DNA from: Kiloniella sp.
GTDB taxonomy: Bacteria > Pseudomonadota > Alphaproteobacteria > UBA7985
Length of the DNA: 36,305 bases
Direction of reading: 5' to 3'
Assembly (NCBI GenBank): GCA_002690455.1
Contig: NZET01000001.1
Span: 1-36,305, forward strand
Shown in pieces: positions 5,914 through 17,035 of the stretch (its first letter is position 1; each line of letters begins with the position of its first letter). The notes beneath the pieces were generated by a model. That model ran no database searches and had not been told where the DNA came from. It saw only the letters and a program-made list of their open reading frames with translations. Position numbers and translations under genes: made by a program.

Positions 5914-8900
5914 TCAAAGAATTTCATAGCTCGTATAGTTGTCGTATTCACGAATGATCACTGTTTTCCAGCCGTCGATATCGAAATAGCGGGTAAAATA
6001 AACGCCACCTTCCCGACCGGACGTTGCCTCCCAACCGCAATACGCTTGGTTCTCGTAACCATCATTGTCTAAACCGACCGTGACGGTAACCGGTGCCCCC
6101 GTTGCAGGATTGATCGCGCCCGTAAAAATCCGGCCCGTGCCATTGTCCATAATGGTCACTGTGCCCGTTGGATTCACACTAAGGGTAAAAACTTCACCGT
6201 TGTCTCTCTCATCATCTCGTTCCTCGATGATTGTCGTCCGAACCAGCATTTCACCAACATCGTTCAGCTGGGTCGAACCAGCGACAAAGTCCTCCCACGT
6301 GCTGTTTGCGAAGTCGTAGACCTTCATATCAAAGTTCTGAATAACGGTATCTCCTGAGCCCAAAACACTGAGGTTGTTGAGAACAAGATTGTTCGGCCCC
6401 GCCACCGAATTGATCGCATAGTCGGAGGCTTCATTAACAATGACATCATCGATGAACAGCAGGTCGGTGTCGTTGTCGAGGTTCGTTGCATCTGTATCAG
6501 GGGCGTTCGCGGTCACGGTGCCGGGATACTTTACGCTGGTCCCATCGTCCTTGATGGTTCCGGTACCGACAACGCCGACGCCACTGGCCGGGGTTACGGT
6601 CAACCGAAACTGTTCTGCATCATCAGCAAAGGTGTCCTGTTCATCGGTAATTGAAATGCGGAGGAGGAGCGTACCTGTCCCGTCAATGTTGATCGGGGTT
6701 GTATTATTGAAGACAAGCCAGCTGGCACCATCCCAGTACTCAACATCATTATCGGAAAGTCCGTTAGTAAGGTTCCCACCTGCTGCATCGCCGTCTGCAA
6801 TGGTAATGTCATTGATCTGGGCGTTGACCGCGCCCGTGACGGTGAAGACAGCATGGGAAGACCCCTCGTTGACACTGATATTTTGGATGGCCAACCCAGC
6901 CCCAGTATCATTGTCCTTCGCAGAAACATTGTCCGTCGCCGGAGTGGTGGAGTTGGTTGGGGCCAGATCAGGGTACAGCGTTCCAGTGCCGTCATCCTTG
7001 ATCGTTGCAGTCCCTGTCCCTGCGATGCCGCCGGTGTTGCTCGCCTGCAGCGTGAAGGTCTCGCCGTCATCCGCTATGCCGTCATTGACAACCGCCACGC
7101 GCACCAGCACGTCACCCCCGCCGTCCAGCGCAACTGTCGAACCACCGGCGTACGACGCCCAGGCTGCTCCGTTCCAATACTCAAGAGCGCTGCCATAGTC
7201 TGTACCGCCACCCGTCGCCGTTCCGACACCGGGTAAGCTCAGTGTCACCAACTGGCCTGCTGCTCCGCTGACCGTGAACACCGCATACGGTGAGCCTTCA
7301 TTCACCGTGATGTTGTTCACTGTGACCGCACGGTCATCATCCGGCGTCGTGGCATTGTCGACGGAACCATCGCCTAAGAAAATCGTCCCGGTGCCATCAT
7401 CGGAAATGGTTGCGGTGCCGTTGTCAGTTGTCGCAGTTCCCTGGATGGTCGCGCTGAGGATGAAGGTTTCATCACCTTCACTGGTGGCATCATTATTGAT
7501 CGCAGTCCGCGCGAGGATGGTGCCGGTTACTGACGCAGAGACAGCGGCGATGTAATCTTGCCAGTTCGCACCGCCATCCACTGAATACTGGATCGCAGCC
7601 CCTGAGGAGGCATAGTCGTTGCCGATACCAGCAGTCGCTGTCCCCGACTGTAACGCCAATTCGATGAGCGTGTTGCTCTGGGTCGTTACCTGAAAGACGG
7701 CGTAGCCAGAGGCCTCGTTGACGGAAATATCATTGACCGCAACCGAGGGACTCTGGATCGAAACCTCGTCGATGGATGAGTCTTGTAGCGTATAGCCGGT
7801 GCCGTCAGTGATAATCGCTTCGACGTCGTAGTCTGTCCCTTGAACCAGCGTCTTTCCTTCGGTGACGCCACCGGTAGAGGGGTCATCATTAAGATCGAGA
7901 GACCAGGTCCCGGTGCCATCACCACCGCTGTCAAAGGTAAGGGTCAGCTCTGAGTCATTTTCGTCAAAGAACTGACCGTCGACGGTTAAACTCAGCGTCT
8001 CGCTGTTGCTGCGGTCGATGTCAAAGGTACCCGTGATTACGGGCGTACTATCTGAGGCAATCGTCCCATCTACGGTGACGTAGCCATCCGGCGCATTTGC
8101 CTGCGTTACCGCTAGATATGCGTTAAGGTCATTAACATCGACCGGATCCGCCGACCCGCTGTTGTTATCCCCATCGGTATAGCTGAGACCATTGTTGATC
8201 TTTTCGAGACCGAAGTTTGAGATGCGTCCACTAGCGTGATTGGCGCCACGAATTATCCAATCTTCGCTGCCGGTAACATTTCCGGAATTGTCATAAGTGG
8301 GAATGGGGACAAATGCACCGTTGGCGTAGCGCACTGAGATATCGGTATCGTCGCCAGGCAGAAACCCAAAGGTCTCTGTCGTATTGCCCGTCTTATCCTG
8401 CCAGTTGATCGCGCCACTGATCGAATATGAAGTCCCGTCAGAAAGGACAATCTTGAGGAAACCCGGGATATCGTTGCCTTGCGAGCCACCGTCGACAAAC
8501 TGCCCCGTGTTAGAGTTCTGCTGAAAGAATGAAATTTGGATGTTGAGCGTTGAGAAATTCGTCAGCGCCAATGTTTTGTTTGGGTTTGTGCCCTGATCTC
8601 CGACGATCCCGTTTTCAAACGGAACGCTGAGTGTGGCCATCAGGTGATTGAGCCCCGGCACAGGATCGGCTTCATAACCGGGCAAGTCACGGTCAAGAAA
8701 GGGGCAATATCCGAAATCCAGAAAGTAGGTTCCGCCTAACCGCGAAGGGCCGACAGGCCGCGAACTGGCGAAGACCCTGACGCCGAGAGCCTGAGCGAGA
8801 CGACGGACAAATTGCCGCCCAGAGCCAGCCGCTACGCGGCAGCTGATCAGTTCCAACGCGTCGGCATCCTTCAGCGCTTCGCGAGCTAGCGCGAGCTGAT

Positions 8901-9000
8901 CCGGATTTTGAAGAGAGGACACATCGAGCTTTTTGCCCTTAAAGCAAAGCTCTCCTGGTCGCCCATGGACAACCCAGCGGACCGTTCGGAATTGAATCAT
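5914..9000 (-). CDS. Large repeat protein: DUF4347-like head, Ig-like segment, four Calx-beta-like repeats
   Basis: A 1028-residue acidic, Thr/Asp/Gly-rich protein of surface or secreted type. Residues 1-~95 match the second half of DUF4347: the VVHGRPGELCF strand-loop with His12, LISCRVAAGSG with Cys54, FVRRLAQALGVRVFAS, and a GGTYFLDFG end. The usual first half is missing. Residues ~120-300 are unrecognised. Residues ~305-420 look like a bacterial Ig-like unit (VITGTF...GTWSLDL...YDVEAIITD). From ~425 to ~960 four units recur, each opening with (I/V)xVNE(A/G)SxYAVFxV and closing with a T(I)xDDGTG turn, in the style of Calx-beta domains. No RTX nonapeptides, signal peptide or LPXTG motif are visible, so the export route is unknown. 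The ATG at 9000 has no convincing ribosome-binding site and an in-frame stop lies 12-15 bases upstream, so a true start elsewhere or a truncated gene is possible. Confidence 0.75.
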   Translation of the reverse strand: MIQFRTVRWVVHGRPGELCFKGKKLDVSSLQNPDQLALAREALKDADALELISCRVAAGSGRQFVRRLAQALGVRVFASSRPVGPSRLGGTYFLDFGYCPFLDRDLPGYEADPVPGLNHLMATLSVPFENGIVGDQGTNPNKTLALTNFSTLNIQISFFQQNSNTGQFVDGGSQGNDIPGFLKIVLSDGTSYSISGAINWQDKTGNTTETFGFLPGDDTDISVRYANGAFVPIPTYDNSGNVTGSEDWIIRGANHASGRISNFGLEKINNGLSYTDGDNNSGSADPVDVNDLNAYLAVTQANAPDGYVTVDGTIASDSTPVITGTFDIDRSNSETLSLTVDGQFFDENDSELTLTFDSGGDGTGTWSLDLNDDPSTGGVTEGKTLVQGTDYDVEAIITDGTGYTLQDSSIDEVSIQSPSVAVNDISVNEASGYAVFQVTTQSNTLIELALQSGTATAGIGNDYASSGAAIQYSVDGGANWQDYIAAVSASVTGTILARTAINNDATSEGDETFILSATIQGTATTDNGTATISDDGTGTIFLGDGSVDNATTPDDDRAVTVNNITVNEGSPYAVFTVSGAAGQLVTLSLPGVGTATGGGTDYGSALEYWNGAAWASYAGGSTVALDGGGDVLVRVAVVNDGIADDGETFTLQASNTGGIAGTGTATIKDDGTGTLYPDLAPTNSTTPATDNVSAKDNDTGAGLAIQNISVNEGSSHAVFTVTGAVNAQINDITIADGDAAGGNLTNGLSDNDVEYWDGASWLVFNNTTPINIDGTGTLLLRISITDEQDTFADDAEQFRLTVTPASGVGVVGTGTIKDDGTSVKYPGTVTANAPDTDATNLDNDTDLLFIDDVIVNEASDYAINSVAGPNNLVLNNLSVLGSGDTVIQNFDMKVYDFANSTWEDFVAGSTQLNDVGEMLVRTTIIEERDDERDNGEVFTLSVNPTGTVTIMDNGTGRIFTGAINPATGAPVTVTVGLDNDGYENQAYCGWEATSGREGGVYFTRYFDIDGWKTVIIREYDNYTSYEIL

Positions 9001-9578: not shown

Positions 9579-10886
9579 ATGGCCAGAGCCAGCCTGATGT
9601 CTTCACTGATTTCATCGATCCTCGACGCCCCGAACAAATGGCTGGGTGTCGGCAACGGATCGGCAACGACTGCGGAACGCCTGATTGAGCAATGCCAGCG
9701 ACTGATCGGCTCGGCGGGTGAGGCCTCCGGCGTCGCACTGGCGCAGGACGTTCTCGCTTCCTACGCGGCGCTGGATCCAGCCTTCCGGCTCGAATTCTTT
9801 ACCCGGTTGGCCATCGATTTCGACCCAGCGCCCGGTGACGTGCTGGACGCAGCAAATCAGTTTGCCGCCGACAATTCACCCCGCGCGCTCAAGACCTTGA
9901 TGGAGACAGTCGAACCTCGGCGTCGCAGTCTGCTGCGCAAGCTCAATCAGGCGCCGGGCGGAACACAAGCGCTGGTGCGGATGCGGGAAGCATTGCTGCC
10001 CCTGCTCCGGGAAAACCCGGAACTCAAGCGCGTTGATGCTGATTTCGAGTTTCTCTTCAGCGCTTGGTTCAACCGTGGCTTTCTGGTGCTTTACGCCATC
10101 GACTGGTCGTTTCCGGCAAACGTACTGGAAAAGCTGCTCGAGTATGAAGCCGTGCACGAAATCCAAAGCTGGGAGGACTTGAAGAGCCGGGTTCAACCGC
10201 AGGATCGGCGCTGCTTTTCCTTCTTTCACCCGGCTATGCCCGATGAGCCGCTGATATTCGTTCAAGTGGCACTGATGAAAGCGATGCCCGCCGCGATCGA
10301 CGAGGTGTTCGACCCAAGGCGTGAACCGGTCAAGGCTGAAGAAGCCAACACAGCCGTGTTCTATTCGATCACCAACTGTCAGGTCGGGCTTCGGGGGGTC
10401 TCTTTTGGTAACTTCCTGATTAAGCAAGTGGCCAGCGACCTTTCTCGCGAATTACCGGGACTGAAGGCCTTCTGCACGCTCTCTCCGGTGCCCGGATTTG
10501 GCCGCTGGGTGCGCGACGACGCAGAGGCAGCACCAGCCCTCGCCCGGCTAGAGGTCATTCGGAACACACCGGGTTGGCAGGATGACAAGGCGCTTTCAAC
10601 CGAGAACCGAAACCTGCTCGAACCGCTGGCCGCGCGCTATTTCCTGCGCGAACTGCGCCCCGACGGCCAGCCCATCGACCCGGTCGCGCGCTTCCACCTA
10701 GGAAATGGTGCCATTCTCGACCGGCTTAATCCGACTGGGAACCTGTCTGCCCGCGGATTGGATGAGGCGCTGGGGTTGATGGTCAACTACCGCTACGATC
10801 TCGCCAAGGTCGAAGAGAACCATGAGGCCTACGTCAATGACGGATTGGTCACGGCCTCCAAATCAATCACTGATCTGGCAAAATGA
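9579..10886 (+). CDS. Malonyl-CoA decarboxylase
   Basis: A 435-residue member of the malonyl-CoA decarboxylase family (PF05292), which converts malonyl-CoA to acetyl-CoA and CO2. The helical N-terminal half is followed by the acyltransferase-like C-terminal domain. Conserved blocks are FFHPAMPDEPLIFVQVAL, FYSITNCQVGLRGVSFGNFL with its family Ser, FCTLSPVPGFGRWV and FHLGNGAILDRLNP, which carries a conserved His. Length is normal for bacterial forms. ATG at 9579 is chosen because AGGA lies nine bases before it; a TTG at 9570 would abut that site. No malonyl-CoA synthetase (MatB) or malonate transporter is adjacent, unlike rhizobial mat operons, so it may clear excess malonyl-CoA. Its last 20 bases overlap the end of the convergent hydrolase gene. 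Confidence 0.93.
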   Translation: MARASLMSSLISSILDAPNKWLGVGNGSATTAERLIEQCQRLIGSAGEASGVALAQDVLASYAALDPAFRLEFFTRLAIDFDPAPGDVLDAANQFAADNSPRALKTLMETVEPRRRSLLRKLNQAPGGTQALVRMREALLPLLRENPELKRVDADFEFLFSAWFNRGFLVLYAIDWSFPANVLEKLLEYEAVHEIQSWEDLKSRVQPQDRRCFSFFHPAMPDEPLIFVQVALMKAMPAAIDEVFDPRREPVKAEEANTAVFYSITNCQVGLRGVSFGNFLIKQVASDLSRELPGLKAFCTLSPVPGFGRWVRDDAEAAPALARLEVIRNTPGWQDDKALSTENRNLLEPLAARYFLRELRPDGQPIDPVARFHLGNGAILDRLNPTGNLSARGLDEALGLMVNYRYDLAKVEENHEAYVNDGLVTASKSITDLAK

Positions 10887-11688
10887 GGGCCGCCACTGCT
10901 TCGGCGACCAGCTCTGGCCGCTCCATGACCAGATCGTGACTGGTGTCTTCAAAAATCTTGATGCTGGCGCGCGGGATCAATTCGGCTAGTACCTCTGCTG
11001 ATTCCGCCGGAATGAGTGGATCGTTGAGGCTGAACAACGCCCGGACGGGTGTGCCCTGAATGCTCAAGGTTTCGAAACTCGCCCCCATGCCGTCGAGCGG
11101 GAAGTGCCGCAGCGTACTCAGAAGCGCGGCGTAGTAACCCGGTATTTGTGCCTGTTGCCTGACGGCGGCATTGGCCATGTCCCGAACCACAGGGTCCGAC
11201 GAATGGGAAATCGTGATATCAGGCCCCATCCAACGCCAGATCAAATCACCGATCAATGGTACTGAGAACCAGCCCAGGCTCAAGGGACGGGAGAGCCTTA
11301 GCCCAGTCGTTGCAACCAGCACAACACCCCGCACCTGACCCGGATAGTGCGCAGCAAAGTCCACCGCAATCGCCCCACCCATCGAATTCCCCACAAGTGT
11401 TGCTGGACCCTCCACCCCAACCGCATCGAGAAACTCGGCAAGCATCTGGTTGTAGAGCGCTGCGTCATGACGCACCGCTGGGCGGTCACTGAACCCGCGA
11501 CCATAAAGATCAGGCGCAAACACGCGATACCCCGCGTCTTCAAGCAGAGGCCCCAGATAATTGAAACACCAGCTACCAAAGGAAAAGCCGTGGATTAGCA
11601 CCACCACCGGACCATCGTGCGGACCGGCAGCACGATAGTGAACACGTCCTTGAGATAGGTGAACAAACTGCTGGGGTTCCTGAACCAT
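10867..11688 (-). CDS. Alpha/beta hydrolase
   Basis: A 273-residue alpha/beta-fold hydrolase. HGFSFG at about residues 33-38 forms the oxyanion region. The nucleophile is Ser102 in GNSMGG, an acid residue is in SLNDPLIP, and the catalytic His is in TSHDLVMERPE, so the triad is complete. A cap-like segment rich in Trp and Pro lies between about residues 130 and 190. There is no signal peptide. AAGG sits about six bases before the ATG. It converges on the decarboxylase gene with a 20-base 3' overlap and is divergent from the sigma-factor gene. The substrate is unknown; family members include esterases, C-C bond hydrolases and haloperoxidase-like enzymes. Confidence 0.88.
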   Translation of the reverse strand: MVQEPQQFVHLSQGRVHYRAAGPHDGPVVVLIHGFSFGSWCFNYLGPLLEDAGYRVFAPDLYGRGFSDRPAVRHDAALYNQMLAEFLDAVGVEGPATLVGNSMGGAIAVDFAAHYPGQVRGVVLVATTGLRLSRPLSLGWFSVPLIGDLIWRWMGPDITISHSSDPVVRDMANAAVRQQAQIPGYYAALLSTLRHFPLDGMGASFETLSIQGTPVRALFSLNDPLIPAESAEVLAELIPRASIKIFEDTSHDLVMERPELVAEAVAALILPDQ

Positions 11689-11791
11689 TCGGCACCTTGC
11701 AAGATTTTTGGAAAAAATTTGAATCCGGCGTAAACGCTATGCCAGTCTGCCTGTGTAAGGCTTTTGAAACAACGAACTTTCGTGTGCTGGA

Positions 11792-12418
11792 ATGGATCTG
11801 GATCAAACCGATTTCTCAGCCCTACTTGATAGGGAAGAACGCGCTTGGAGCCGTTTCATTCTAAATGCACGACCCGTTTTGGAGGCCGCTGTGCAGCGAA
11901 CCTTTGCCAGACAAGGACTTAAGCCGGACGCCGGGCTGTTTCAGGACGCAATCAGTGCGTCGCTGGAGCGACTGGCGAACGACGATTTTGCCTTGCTGCG
12001 TCGGTTCGATCCTGACCGTGGCTCGATCCGCGCCTTCCTTGCAGTGGTGGCCGGATCGACCGCATCAAACAGCTTGCGCGCTGCGCGAAGGCACAGCGGC
12101 GCAGACCTGAGTACAATCGAAGAGAGCGTTGCCTCAACCGCACCAGTCGACGGGCAGAGGCTGGCTGACTTGGTTCCAGAGGGTCTGCTGTCTGAGCGCG
12201 AAGCACTGGTCCTGCGACTTGTGTTCGAACGCGACTTGCAGGGACCGGATATCGCACGCGTCTTGGATATTTCGGAGAACACCGTACGGGTGCTCAAGGC
12301 ACGCGCGCTTAAGAAGTTGCGCGAAGCAGGCCTGCAGCCTGACGGTTCTTTTGCAGACGAGGATACACAGCCTCAGCGCCGGGTACGACCTGAACAGCCT
12401 GAAGGGGACAGGCCATGA
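11792..12418 (+). CDS. ECF-like RNA polymerase sigma factor
   Basis: A 208-residue sigma-70 family protein. Residues ~25-105 form region 2: FQDAISASLERL corresponds to the helix that binds core enzyme, and RFDPDRGSIRAFLAVVAGSTASNSLRAARR is the promoter-melting part. After a short linker, region 4 spans ~130-185: LLSEREALVLRLVFERDLQGPDIARVLDISENTVRVLKARALKKLR is a sigma helix-turn-helix. There are no regions 1 or 3. The C-terminal 20 residues are charged. The next gene overlaps its stop by four bases (ATGA), the usual arrangement for sigma and anti-sigma partners. The ATG has only a weak ribosome-binding site. The target promoter is not identified. Confidence 0.88.
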   Translation: MDLDQTDFSALLDREERAWSRFILNARPVLEAAVQRTFARQGLKPDAGLFQDAISASLERLANDDFALLRRFDPDRGSIRAFLAVVAGSTASNSLRAARRHSGADLSTIEESVASTAPVDGQRLADLVPEGLLSEREALVLRLVFERDLQGPDIARVLDISENTVRVLKARALKKLREAGLQPDGSFADEDTQPQRRVRPEQPEGDRP

Positions 12419-12840
12419 TAAACCATCGTAATCACGAAAACGACAACGATATTCTGGTGCTGATCGCCCGCCGTGCCGGTGGCGATCGCCTGAACCGGGC
12501 CGAACAGGCGACGCTGGAGCGTGCGATGCTCAGCGACACGGACCTCGCCCTGCTGCTGCTGGACGCGACCGAGGTTGCGGCGGCACCGGTCCGCCCACAG
12601 ACGATTGGCGATGGCCGGGCCGCGACCAGAGGGCGGGTGCGGTTGGCCGCACTCGTGATGGGACTCGCAGCTTGCTTTGGCGTAGGCGCAACAGCTGGGG
12701 CGCAGCTGGCCACGGGTCTACTTACAAGTGGCGTTGGCGCCGGCACCCCGAGCCACAATCAACCTCTCACCAACGTCGAGTTTCGTGGGGTCGGTGATGC
12801 ACTTAACCTGAAGCTTCGCATTGAGAGCCGGGAGAAATAG
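12415..12840 (+). CDS. Probable anti-sigma factor, single membrane segment
   Basis: A 141-residue protein with an ~80-residue Arg- and Leu-rich cytoplasmic N-terminus, one hydrophobic segment at about 81-105 (AALVMGLAACFGVGATAGAQ) and a short periplasmic tail. It has no recognised anti-sigma domain signature such as a zinc-finger HxxxCxxC. The call rests on topology, on the ATGA overlap with the sigma gene and on the membrane-anchored partner that follows, as in the CnrY/CnrX/CnrH arrangement. AAGGGG lies seven bases before its ATG. It could instead be a structural membrane protein unrelated to sigma control. Confidence 0.6.
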   Translation: MINHRNHENDNDILVLIARRAGGDRLNRAEQATLERAMLSDTDLALLLLDATEVAAAPVRPQTIGDGRAATRGRVRLAALVMGLAACFGVGATAGAQLATGLLTSGVGAGTPSHNQPLTNVEFRGVGDALNLKLRIESREK

Positions 12841-12843
12841 GCC

Positions 12844-13293
12844 ATGAAAAACCCGCTTATTCTGTGGATCGCCCTCGGCTCCTTATTCCTGAACATCGGT
12901 GTCGTCAGCGCTGCGGGCTTTGTCATCTGGCAGAACTGGGGCAACCCGACCGAGGCTGACACCCCCTGGGCCGCGCTTGAAGCCGCCGGCTTTGACGACG
13001 ATAACTGGGCCGACCTCGACACCCTGCTTGAAGGTCGCAATCTGAGTATCGACGAGCTGGTCGAACGCATGGATGAACAGACCGATTTCGCTCTCGATCA
13101 GCTGTGGCAGGAGACTATCGATCCAGAGGTTCTGTTCGATACCTTCAACCAGATTGAAGACGAACGTACGGCCCTTTCGCGCGCTTTGTTCGAAGACTTT
13201 GTCAGCTATCTAGCCACCCTGCCACTGGACCAGCGGGGCGCGCTGATGGAGCTATTGTTTGAAGGGGAGGACTTTGCCCTATGGCCTCTCTGA
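12844..13293 (+). CDS. Membrane-anchored periplasmic protein, CnrX/Spy-like sensor candidate
   Basis: A 149-residue protein with an uncleaved-looking N-terminal anchor (ILWIALGSLFLNIGVVSAAGFVIW) and a strongly acidic, helical periplasmic domain. The closing motif LPLDQRGALMELLF resembles the LPxxQRxxLxxL hallmark of Spy/CnrX-like helical-hairpin proteins. CnrX binds metals through His and Met residues. This protein contains no His at all, so a metal-sensing role by that route is unlikely. It starts three bases after the previous stop, with GGGAG upstream. By position it is the third member of a sigma/anti-sigma/sensor operon. A DUF of unknown function is the alternative. Confidence 0.55.
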   Translation: MKNPLILWIALGSLFLNIGVVSAAGFVIWQNWGNPTEADTPWAALEAAGFDDDNWADLDTLLEGRNLSIDELVERMDEQTDFALDQLWQETIDPEVLFDTFNQIEDERTALSRALFEDFVSYLATLPLDQRGALMELLFEGEDFALWPL

Positions 13294-13412
13294 CGACCTA
13301 TCGGCGGGTTGACGGGACCCAACATACCGGCACCGTTCCGACCTAAAAACCACCGCATACCACCACCCCACACACCGAACCGAACACCACCTCATCTTCA
13401 AGGAGACGAATG

Positions 13413-15689
13413 ATGAAAACCCTGAACCGTGCCTGCCGTCTGGCGGGCGCTGCTATCCGCGCGCTAGGAACAGCCCTGGGGACAACGTTGGTCGCGGCGC
13501 TCTCCCCCGCCGCCCTCGCCCAGACCAACAGCGCCGACCTGAGCCAGCCGTTGACCGCTGCGGATGTCCGGCATGCGCTGACCCGCACCAGTTTCGCCGC
13601 CACACCGAGCGACCTGAGTGCCTTTCTCGGCCAGCCACGCACCTCGCTGGTTGCCAGCATCCTCGACGATGTGCAGGCGCCAGACACCCAGCCCCTGCCC
13701 CAGTACCTTTACAATTGGCCGATCCCCGTCGAACTGCTTTATGCAAAGAACGAAACTTTGGGCGAGCTGGCACTGGGCCAGCAGTTCCTGAACCTCCAGG
13801 CGCTGCAGGGTTGGTGGTCGGTCGAGATGATCAGCTCAACCAACCCGTTCAAGGAGCAGATGACTCTGTTCTGGATGGATCACTTCGTCACCTCTTTCGA
13901 GAGCCACGAAGACGCGCAGCTGACGGCGAGCCAGTTCCTCACGATCCGCAATAGCCTCAACGGCTCGTTCCGGGACATGCTGGCACTGCAGCTGCGTGAC
14001 CCGTCGATGCTGCTCTATCTCAGCAACGTCGAGAACGTCAAAGCCACCCCAAATGAAAATTTAGCCCGAGAACTTCTTGAGCTGTTTACGCTTGGACAGG
14101 GGCGTGGCTACACCGAGGCGGACATCCGCGAGGTTGCCCGCGCGCTGACCGGCTACGGCATTGACCAATCCGGCCAGTTCCGCTTCTGGGCAGATCAGCA
14201 TGATCCCGGCAAAAAAACGATCTTTGGAAGGTCTGGCCGTTTCACTGCCGATGACCTACCCGCACTGATCCTATCTCAGCCTGCCTTTGGCCCATACATC
14301 GCCGAGCAGCTGTGGCGATACTTCATCTCTGAAACCCCCGACCCGCAGCAGATCGACGCGATGGTCACTCGCTGGCGGGCGGCAGACTGGGATCTACCAA
14401 CGCTCTATCGTGCTTTGCTGGAAACACCGGCATTCTGGGAGCCAAGCACCCACGGCACCCTGATCAAATCGCCAATCGAACTATTCGTAGGCTTCAACCG
14501 CACCTTTGGCACCGCACCTAACTATCTGGGCGAGATTGCCGATTGGAGCGAGCAGGCCGGGCAGGCTTTGTTCTTCCCACCCAACGTTGCCGGCTGGCAG
14601 GAAGGGCCAAATTGGATCAACGATTCCAGCCTGGCCCTGCGGTCAACCGCACTGCGGGACCTGGGTGACGTCTGGATGTACGATGCCTTTCAGGCCGGAT
14701 CAGATGGTGCAGTCTCAACCCACGGACAAGCGGCACAGAATTCAGAGACCGACGGCTTCAGGGTCGGTGAAATTGCACTGGGGTGGGCCTGGCAGAACAC
14801 CGAGGACGACTGGCGAGAAACCGGGTTCGAGCTACAGCTCTATGACGTTGGCTTCAGGGGCCAGACCTTCCGTGATTTTCGCTTCTTCGTTGGTCTGGAA
14901 CAGGAAGGCTTCAACCAGCAGGGTCAGAGCGAGATCTACCTCGGCGTCGGCAGTGAAAATTGCCACACCGGCTGCCCTTTGCAGGGCGTACTCGCCCGAA
15001 CCCTGCCCTATGAGGAGGCAGACTCTCAAGTCGAAGCCAATGAAGAAGGTATCGAGTTCTTCATTTCACCCGAAGACATGTCAGACGGCGTAAGTCGGCT
15101 GAGCACCAATGAAGCAGATTTCCTTGCCGCACTGGTCCGCGCCCTGCCGGAGATGGTCAGCGCCGTCCGTGAAGACCAGACCTGGGACTATCTGGCCGAG
15201 GATGCCGCCGAAGATGCCAGCCAGAGCTTGCCAACCTTTGACGAAATCCGTTCGGTAGCCGCTGGCATCAGCGAGCGCTTTGCCCGGCGCGGGGTCCTCG
15301 CCCGCGCGATGCGGCAGGCCCCTCGTCTCGAACGCGGTTTCAGTCGTTCTGGTAGCCTCGGTCTGGCGCCTGAGCTGATGGCTGTGGCCATGCCGACAGG
15401 GGCAGGCCAGGTCATCGCGGACGAAGACAGCGTAGAGGCGGTGTATGGCCTACTCTACGACCGGATTGACCAACGCTACCAGGGACGGCTGAGCGAAACC
15501 TTTGCCGGACCGGAAGATTGGAGGGCAGCCCTGCCGAACGACCTGCGCACCGCCGAAGCGATCGAGAGCTTGCTGCTGCCCGTGCGCAATCCAGACCTGG
15601 CGACGGCTTCTTTCGTGATCGAAGACGAAGAAAGCCTTGAGCAGCTACTGACTGCGCTGATCCTCGACCCGCGCTTTAACCTCAAATGA
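13413..15689 (+). CDS. Secreted DUF1800 protein with long C-terminal extension
   Basis: About 758 residues with an N-terminal signal peptide ending LSPAALAQ. The DUF1800 core occupies residues ~45-415. Its hallmarks are LTRTSFAAT, LFWMDHFVTSFE, NLARELLELFTLGQGRGYTEADIREVARALTGYGI (positions 14062-14163), LWRYFIS, SPIELFVGF and PNVAGWQEGPNWIND. The remaining ~340 residues exceed the usual DUF1800 length and hold a beta-rich stretch with a close Cys pair (NCHTGC, ~residue 515). Two ATGs occur at 13410 and 13413; the second is better spaced from AAGGAG. DUF1800 has no established function but is very often paired with DUF1501, encoded next here with only 35 bases between them. Confidence 0.87.
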   Translation: MKTLNRACRLAGAAIRALGTALGTTLVAALSPAALAQTNSADLSQPLTAADVRHALTRTSFAATPSDLSAFLGQPRTSLVASILDDVQAPDTQPLPQYLYNWPIPVELLYAKNETLGELALGQQFLNLQALQGWWSVEMISSTNPFKEQMTLFWMDHFVTSFESHEDAQLTASQFLTIRNSLNGSFRDMLALQLRDPSMLLYLSNVENVKATPNENLARELLELFTLGQGRGYTEADIREVARALTGYGIDQSGQFRFWADQHDPGKKTIFGRSGRFTADDLPALILSQPAFGPYIAEQLWRYFISETPDPQQIDAMVTRWRAADWDLPTLYRALLETPAFWEPSTHGTLIKSPIELFVGFNRTFGTAPNYLGEIADWSEQAGQALFFPPNVAGWQEGPNWINDSSLALRSTALRDLGDVWMYDAFQAGSDGAVSTHGQAAQNSETDGFRVGEIALGWAWQNTEDDWRETGFELQLYDVGFRGQTFRDFRFFVGLEQEGFNQQGQSEIYLGVGSENCHTGCPLQGVLARTLPYEEADSQVEANEEGIEFFISPEDMSDGVSRLSTNEADFLAALVRALPEMVSAVREDQTWDYLAEDAAEDASQSLPTFDEIRSVAAGISERFARRGVLARAMRQAPRLERGFSRSGSLGLAPELMAVAMPTGAGQVIADEDSVEAVYGLLYDRIDQRYQGRLSETFAGPEDWRAALPNDLRTAEAIESLLLPVRNPDLATASFVIEDEESLEQLLTALILDPRFNLK

Positions 15690-15724
15690 CAACTCAGCCG
15701 AGACAGCACGAAAGGAACAAGACA

Positions 15725-17035
15725 ATGACCACCACAAAACTTTCCATGAACCGGCGCAACTGGCTCCGTCTTCTGGGAGCCTCTGCCGCTGCTCTGCCCA
15801 TGCTGAGCACGCCAGCCTGGGCGGCCGGCGCAATGGCCGGGGGCAACCACTGCCTGATCCTGATAGAGCTCGAAGGGGGAAACGACGGGCTGAACACCTT
15901 GATCCCATTCCGTGACGACAACTATCATCGCGCTCGGCCAACGTTAGCGCTTTCCGGTTCGGACGTGCTGGGGTTGAACAGCGAGAGCGGCCTGCACCCC
16001 AGTCTTGGCGGGCTGGCGAAAGCGTGGGAACGGGGGGATCTGCGCCTGATCGAAGGCGTTGGCTATCCCGACCCTAACCGCAGCCACTTCCGCTCGATCG
16101 AAATCTGGAATGCCGGATTAGGTGCGCAGAGCAATGACACGCAGGGCTGGATTTCACGGCTGATGAACGGCGCGGACGGCGTGCAGGCCCTGGACACAGA
16201 CGGGATCCGGCTGGGCGGTGAAATGGGACCACTGCGCGGCCCAGGGCGCTTCACAGGGCTGGAGGAGATCGAAGGCTTCTTCGAGCAGACCGATGCCCTG
16301 CGCGCCGCCGGAGTTCTCGGCGAGTATGACGACGCGACGACCGGCAACACCATGAATGCCGGCGGCATGGCGGGCCTTATGGATACCAGCAATAGAGCGC
16401 ACGCGGTCCGGCCTGCGGGTGGGAACGCGGCGCTTGACCACGTACTGAGCGTGCACAGCAATGCGCTTGGTACGGCGGACCTGCTGGAACGGAAGATCCG
16501 CGCCTCTGCTCAGCGTGACTTCAACATGCCCGACAGCTTGCTGGGGCTTCAATTGACCGTTGCGCTGCAACTCCTGGATGCGGGCGTCACTACCCCGGTG
16601 TTCAAGGTCAGCCACGGGGGCTTTGACACCCACGCCAACCAGGAGGAGGAGCACGCTTTCCTGCTTTTGGAACTCGATGAAGCGCTGGCTGGCTTCGAGC
16701 GGGCTGCCCGCGACATGGGCCTGTGGGATCAGGTGACGCTGATGACCTACTCCGAGTTTGGTCGTCGGTTCTACGAAAACGGCTCAGCCGGTACAGACCA
16801 TGGCACGGCTGCCCCGGTGATCCTAGCCGGCGGCGCAGTCCGAGGCGGGCTGGGCGGTCAACGGCCATCGCTGGAAGCACGCGATCTGGTCGACCGCGAC
16901 ATGGTCCACACCACTGACTTCCGCAGCGTCTACGCGGGCCTCGCCCGGGACCTCTGGGGCCTCGATCCGACCCGCGCAGTTGGAGGTTTGGGAGCTGACG
17001 GAGCGGCGTTCTCCCCAGTCCGCATCCTTGGCTAG
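15725..17035 (+). CDS. DUF1501 protein with Tat signal
   Basis: A 436-residue member of DUF1501, a family related to the alkaline phosphatase/sulfatase superfamily. The N-terminus carries a twin-arginine motif (MNRRNWLRLLGA, Arg10-Arg11) and a hydrophobic stretch ending PAWAAG, so it is probably exported folded through Tat. Family blocks are LIELEGGNDGLNTLIPF, LHPSLGGLAKAWERGDLRLIEGVGYP, NRSHFRSIEIWNAG, GGFDTHANQ, TYSEFGRRFYENGSAGTDHGTAAPV (16747-16821) and DFRSVYAG, which include the Asp/His residues expected for metal binding. ATG at 15725 has AAAGGA eight bases upstream; the ATG at 15686 overlaps the previous stop but has no such site. The substrate is unknown. It is probably co-expressed with the DUF1800 gene. 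Confidence 0.9.
   Translation: MTTTKLSMNRRNWLRLLGASAAALPMLSTPAWAAGAMAGGNHCLILIELEGGNDGLNTLIPFRDDNYHRARPTLALSGSDVLGLNSESGLHPSLGGLAKAWERGDLRLIEGVGYPDPNRSHFRSIEIWNAGLGAQSNDTQGWISRLMNGADGVQALDTDGIRLGGEMGPLRGPGRFTGLEEIEGFFEQTDALRAAGVLGEYDDATTGNTMNAGGMAGLMDTSNRAHAVRPAGGNAALDHVLSVHSNALGTADLLERKIRASAQRDFNMPDSLLGLQLTVALQLLDAGVTTPVFKVSHGGFDTHANQEEEHAFLLLELDEALAGFERAARDMGLWDQVTLMTYSEFGRRFYENGSAGTDHGTAAPVILAGGAVRGGLGGQRPSLEARDLVDRDMVHTTDFRSVYAGLARDLWGLDPTRAVGGLGADGAAFSPVRILG

Follow-up and report, generated by a model that had tools for sequence, protein, structure and literature searches.

The window analysed here is a stretch of 36,305 nucleotides from Kiloniella sp. (GenBank assembly GCA_002690455.1, contig NZET01000001.1), which belongs to a genome assembly of 1.69 Mb with a completeness of 63%. 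The initial annotation had described five genes on a single strand at positions 11792 to 17035, and the respective open reading frames, domains, and export signals were all confirmed on the plus strand. Together with the flanking elements that are relevant for their regulation, the locus comprises the following features:

10867 to 11688, minus strand: divergent cytoplasmic alpha/beta hydrolase, which has its upstream region in common with the sigma gene and stands beside it in 6/6 genus genomes
11729 to 11759, plus strand: candidate sigma-dependent promoter, CGTAAACG-N14-CTGTGTAAG, 32 nt 5' of the sigma start codon, conserved in 6/6 genus genomes
11792 to 12418, plus strand: ECF-type sigma factor with sigma2 and sigma4 domains, P0001 (TIGR02937, Sigma70_r4)
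12415 to 12840, plus strand: candidate membrane anti-sigma factor, P0002, with an ATGA overlap with the sigma gene and a transmembrane segment by hydropathy
12844 to 13293, plus strand: membrane-anchored periplasmic protein of the CnrX/Spy (Metal_resist) family, P0003 (PF13801), a candidate sensor without metal ligands
13294 to 13409, plus strand: intergenic gap in which neither a conserved promoter nor a terminator is seen and whose only conserved element is the ribosome-binding site before DUF1800
13410 to 15689, plus strand: DUF1800 protein of 759 aa, P0004, with a signal peptide and predicted Sec export (Pfam DUF1800)
15686 to 17035, plus strand: DUF1501 protein, P0005, with predicted Tat export and an alkaline phosphatase/sulfatase fold (Pfam DUF1501)

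The sigma gene and the gene of P0002 overlap by ATGA, 3 bases separate the latter from the gene of P0003, 116 bases follow before DUF1800, and DUF1800 and DUF1501 are again joined by an ATGA overlap. The divergent alpha/beta hydrolase is a conserved neighbor in the genus and at most a putative member of the five-gene system. The downstream AbrB and TtcA genes (17250 and 18587) were considered as members of the unit and discarded, as they are not directly adjacent in genomes G006 and G010. A large DUF4347-domain protein is encoded on the minus strand at window positions 5914 to 9000, flanking the five genes.

P0001 matched the NCBIfam sigma70-ECF profile TIGR02937 at 49.2 bits (cut-off 42.9) and Pfam Sigma70_r4 with an E value of 3.9e-11, while region 2 was recognized weakly (E value of 0.0026, below its own cut-off); with sigma2 and sigma4 as its only domains and a score above the family cut-off, it is classified as an ECF sigma factor. 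The product of the overlapping gene contains a single hydrophobic stretch at about residues 77 to 95, in agreement with the one-transmembrane protein that had been noted here, and its sequence suggests a candidate layout with a cytoplasmic N-terminal domain, a single transmembrane segment, and a short periplasmic tail. No family was matched in a Pfam profile search with P0002, and a search of the PDB with the anti-sigma profile retrieved no anti-sigma structure. P0002 can be aligned with its counterparts from families f67 and f69, which bear an anti-sigma-like 'AAYLDGxL...E...AxxPE' segment and show weak zf-HC2 matches below the cut-off. P0003 has an N-terminal transmembrane segment (residues 5 to 23) and scores above the cut-off of Pfam Metal_resist (PF13801; 30.8 versus 29.2 bits), so that the proposed membrane-anchored CnrX/Spy-like protein was recovered as well. 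The best PDB matches of a profile of DUF1800-linked CnrX-like proteins were CnrX (3.5e-7), Spy (5e-6), and NccX (5e-6), and the family profile of P0003 aligned with CnrX of pMOL28 at an E value of 3.8e-6 (hhalign). Phmmer searches of the PDB with P0003, P0004, and P0005 singly gave no useful match.

DUF1800 and DUF1501 co-occur across many bacteria and have had no function assigned. DUF1800 is present in about 31% of the sampled genomes of the phylum (397-genome sample), and DUF1501 adjoins it in 60/60 loci of the phylum sample. In the window, P0004 matched DUF1800 (PF08811) with an E value of 6.8e-96 (322 bits, cut-off 26.1) and P0005 matched DUF1501 (PF07394) with an E value of 3.4e-29 (102.6 bits, cut-off 27); the signal peptide of the former and the twin-arginine motif NRRNWL of the latter bear out the export routes that had been assigned to them. 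The structural model of P0005 (pLDDT 84.5) yielded 48 Foldseek matches in the PDB with E<1e-3, and among the matches listed are sulfatases, LtaS, YejM/PbgA, EptC, and alkaline phosphatase, i.e., the alkaline phosphatase superfamily, with modest TM-scores of 0.3 to 0.4. Residues D67, S133, H134, D314, H316, E357, D371, and H372 are invariant in the DUF1501 alignment, and this Asp/His/Ser set fits a metal site. By its predicted fold and these conserved putative metal-site residues, P0005 belongs to the alkaline phosphatase superfamily. With less confidence, DUF1501 may be regarded as a metal-dependent hydrolase or transferase of phosphate or sulfate esters, which together with DUF1800 would modify a surface polymer or lipid. 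The AlphaFold2 model of P0004 (pLDDT 85) contains a predicted beta-sandwich insertion at about residues 450 to 513 and had no match among PDB folds (best E value of 0.62); it may adopt a hitherto undescribed fold into which a beta-sandwich is inserted.

The conservation of the gene order, whose survey had been suggested initially, extends far beyond this genome, so that the initial refuting condition of an order confined to it clearly does not apply. All five genes, their order, and their strand are kept in 6/6 genus genomes with the divergent alpha/beta hydrolase before them, and the order held while protein identity dropped to 45 to 86% (sigma factor, 66 to 76%; anti-sigma candidate, 45 to 63%; CnrX-like protein, 49 to 83%; DUF1800, 52 to 77%; DUF1501, 73 to 86%). 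The same order was found in a metagenome assembly of 'Geminicoccus sp.', the nearest named relative (Geminicoccales in the NCBI taxonomy). In the unrelated family f69, the sigma gene is present in 72/75 genomes, and the four following genes stand in order in 26/30 loci, the other 4 being cut by contig ends. DUF1800 loci were further sampled from the class (385 genomes) and the phylum (397 genomes), and 120 loci outside the genus were read. An ECF sigma gene and a CnrX-like gene are located upstream on the same strand in 16 of these 120 (class sample, L066, L068, L071, L073, L080, L081, L095, L102, L110, and L113; phylum sample, L244, L247, L279, L284, L286, and L291), with the sigma gene of L068 lying off the contig end. 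These 16 loci represent seven families beside that of the window (eight in all) and two classes, with L244 and L247 originating from the other class. All CnrX-like matches around the 120 loci (n = 16) lie upstream of DUF1800 and on its strand, 15 of them directly or, at L279, L284, and L286, within about 0.5 kb, and the one of L244 at a distance of 2 kb. The sigma unit is hence no chance neighbor of the DUF1800/DUF1501 pair, as its order is conserved across the genus, a second family, and further families.

Two further observations were made at these loci. EF-hand-type calcium-binding proteins are encoded directly 5' of the sigma gene at L102 (10438 to 11115) and L113 (10270 to 10686), which represent two families with the five-gene order, and at L279 and L284, the CnrX-like gene and DUF1800 are separated by the gene of a small secreted protein that contains the segment 'WGCGPGWHPN.WGRCVP'.

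The alignment of the regions upstream of the sigma gene from the six genus genomes revealed an island of conservation, CGTAAACG-N14-CTGTGTAAG. A scan of these genomes with a pattern based on the sigma sites only detected a second site of equal spacing in 5/6, each time directly before one orthologous gene on the same strand that encodes a secreted prolyl-oligopeptidase-type (S9-like) hydrolase of about 350 aa; these five second sites are contained among about 50 matches, and the overall counts were not above the reversed-pattern control. A refined pattern added a sixth second site in G007, so that the hydrolase site is present in 6/6 genomes. With one mismatch at most, the refined pattern has 11 sites in the six genomes, all at these two places and with 0.59 expected, a count that is partly circular because both site classes were used to build the pattern. 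Upstream of the hydrolase gene, the aligned sequences have diverged except for the two boxes, which stand out as islands. A wider regulon based on matches with two to three mismatches was discarded, the counts being not above the reversed-pattern control, and the genus promoter motif was found neither before the DUF1800 paralogues nor before the sigma gene of a second switch near dnaN (see below). The hydrolase with the copy of the sigma site (L132, L134, L136, L137, and L163) shows a sub-cut-off resemblance to PHA depolymerase (NF050058, 30.5 bits).

The 116-bp gap before DUF1800 contains no terminator-like or sigma70-like site. A separate promoter of DUF1800 was considered and rejected, as the six-genome alignment of the gap shows no conserved block and the ribosome-binding site alone is kept. 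The likely sigma-dependent promoter is thus located before the sigma gene (11729 to 11759) instead of in the region upstream of 13410, which the initial annotation had put forward for testing. The sigma gene of family f69 is preceded by another conserved block, which occurs almost only before this operon and is at most a candidate for the sigma factor's own promoter there.

Because the two-part site recurs before the hydrolase and no conserved promoter precedes DUF1800, the upstream sequences indicate that the five genes form a single autoregulated operon and that one additional target lies at a distance. We consider it probable that this is an autoregulated envelope-response operon whose output is the DUF1800/DUF1501 pair and, in the genus, the distant S9-type hydrolase. 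At rest, P0002 would act as an anti-sigma factor that holds the ECF sigma factor at the inner membrane, and P0003 would keep P0002 in this state. A nonmetal periplasmic signal, e.g., an envelope component or polymer that has misfolded or failed to assemble, would change P0003, whereupon P0002 would let go of the sigma factor. The freed sigma factor would read its own promoter at 11729 to 11759, and the single transcript would provide more of the switch proteins together with the exported pair; in the genus of the window, the sigma factor would also turn on the distant secreted hydrolase. Of the two roles that had been proposed for the pair, namely, that it is made in response to a periplasmic signal or that it feeds this signal to the sensor, the first is favored because of the conserved site upstream of the sigma gene, the promoterless gap, and the tight spacing.

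The second role would place the pair on the input side, with DUF1800 and DUF1501 making, removing, or carrying the ligand of P0003 and cotranscription serving as feedback. The pair and the sensor are both periplasmic and are co-encoded in many families, and input and output roles fit the present evidence alike. However, the only other conserved target in the genus is a secreted hydrolase, as would be expected of an effector regulon. In addition, the sensor is missing beside most DUF1800/DUF1501 pairs, and most stand-alone triads of sigma, anti-sigma candidate, and CnrX-like genes lack the pair, so that we regard an input role as unlikely.

The distribution of the two halves bears on a further explanation, according to which a portable three-gene ECF switch merely stands beside an independently expressed DUF1800/DUF1501 pair. 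About 87% of the DUF1800 loci sampled outside the genus are devoid of the switch, and the genus genomes also carry other DUF1800-DUF1501 pairs that have no sigma gene next to them. The subfamily of the window's sigma factor is nearly always accompanied by the anti-sigma candidate and the CnrX-like gene, often without DUF1800, and such stand-alone triads are found beside unrelated genes, i.e., dnaN, lysyl-tRNA synthetase-like, or fumarase-like genes. The switch is thus absent from most of the sampled loci and often occurs by itself, so that neither half seems to need the other. In other DUF1800 loci, the sigma gene is of a classical, distantly related ECF type. The sigma-linked loci require six changes on the DUF1800 tree, at least two of which are forced by supported branches, and the DUF1800-linked lineages are set apart by strongly supported branches in the sigma trees. 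On these trees, two DUF1800 clades are associated with at least two sigma lineages that are unrelated to each other, and the simplest reading is that switch and pair were joined more than once. This repeated association speaks against mere adjacency, as do the uniform position of the 16 sensor genes upstream of DUF1800 and the absence of any conserved promoter or terminator from the gap; the stand-alone triads, the length of this gap, and the other genes between sensor and pair at L244, a locus outside the Alphaproteobacteria, are in favor of mere adjacency. Altogether, independent expression of the pair appears quite improbable.

The genome of the window harbors a second sigma/anti-sigma/CnrX-like triad just 5' of dnaN (G000:C26:28000-45000; loci L032 to L036). 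In five genus genomes, this triad is followed on its strand by a further DUF1800-DUF1501 pair, with dnaN-recF-gyrB and an open reading frame of about 614 aa in between, for which no Pfam match was found.

The operon with the exported pair as its probable output has a candidate sensor that is related to CnrX, and the nature of its signal can be judged from the ligand positions. P0003 contains zero His and zero Cys residues, and its periplasmic part is strongly acidic. In the alignment, the metal ligands His42, His46, His119, and Met123 of CnrX are matched by Pro, Leu, Asp, and Tyr, respectively. Signaling by CnrX requires Met123 (PMC7689651). Metal is an unlikely signal of P0003 because these positions are replaced and the protein has neither His nor Cys. 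The similarity of P0001 to CnrH is not significant (BLASTP E value of 0.44), and P0001 stands apart from CnrH in the sigma tree; the comparison of P0002 with CnrY (hhalign probability of 0.1%) has limited sensitivity because CnrY is short. A true Cnr-type nickel/cobalt sensing system, although the fold of P0003 is homologous to that of CnrX and NccX, is highly improbable and was rejected as largely refuted, given the four replaced ligand positions in a His- and Cys-free protein, the lack of significant similarity to CnrH or CnrY, and a unit without RND efflux genes. From the description of the locus as CnrYXH-like, the three-protein architecture and the fold of the X protein are retained, whereas the sigma factor and the anti-sigma candidate show no significant similarity to their Cnr counterparts and the metal ligands are absent.

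Our literature search, which did not cover the ECF classification survey PMC7826278 that may list this neighborhood, retrieved no paper tying DUF1800/DUF1501 to a sigma factor. The type of switch and the pair are known as such, but the literature searched contains no account of their joint operon, its spread across families, the putatively metal-free sensor, or the candidate promoter and its second target. The regulator, the promoter site, and the second regulon member provide the first direct handles on when and why the pair is made, and this widespread pair now appears to be the output of an envelope stress response, which is open to testing. The sensor fold of CnrX seems to have been put to use for other envelope signals in a form that lacks the metal site. 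It is tempting, if doubtful, to generalize that DUF1800/DUF1501 is an inducible surface-polymer remodeling machine, for which metal-free sensors of the CnrX/Spy fold report the state of polymer or assembly and ECF lineages have been recruited repeatedly.

The CnrYXH switch, encoded on pMOL28 of Cupriavidus metallidurans, is among the closest known systems. It combines an ECF sigma factor, a membrane anti-sigma factor, for which P0002 is the candidate counterpart, and a membrane-anchored periplasmic X protein of the same fold family as P0003, and the release mechanism of CnrX, CnrY, and CnrH has been covered previously (PMC7689651; PMC4598750). The gene order is Y-X-H there and sigma-anti-sigma-X in the window, and CnrYXH possesses the CnrX metal ligands and the CnrCBA efflux output, whereas the window unit lacks the ligands and has DUF1800/DUF1501 as its probable output; CnrH and CnrY show no significant similarity to the window's sigma factor and anti-sigma candidate. 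The periplasmic chaperone Spy belongs to a family whose structures are matched by the P0003 family profile (5e-6, see above), but unlike Spy, P0003 is membrane anchored and co-encoded with a sigma factor and a candidate anti-sigma factor, and a chaperone role is putative. Tandem DUF1800-DUF1501 genes have been reported near bacterial chitin synthases (PMC5122149); they show the same co-oriented arrangement with a Tat signal on DUF1501, while their neighbors are a chitin synthase and a sugar epimerase and no sigma switch was described. The tricistronic rpoE8 operon of Azospirillum brasilense, whose function was reported as unknown and for which DUF1800/DUF1501 were not reported, has been shown experimentally to be autoactivated (PMC12826043). 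It encodes an alphaproteobacterial ECF sigma factor, a hypothetical protein, and a 'periplasmic heavy metal sensor' and is, as judged by this description, the closest experimental parallel to the operon of the window.
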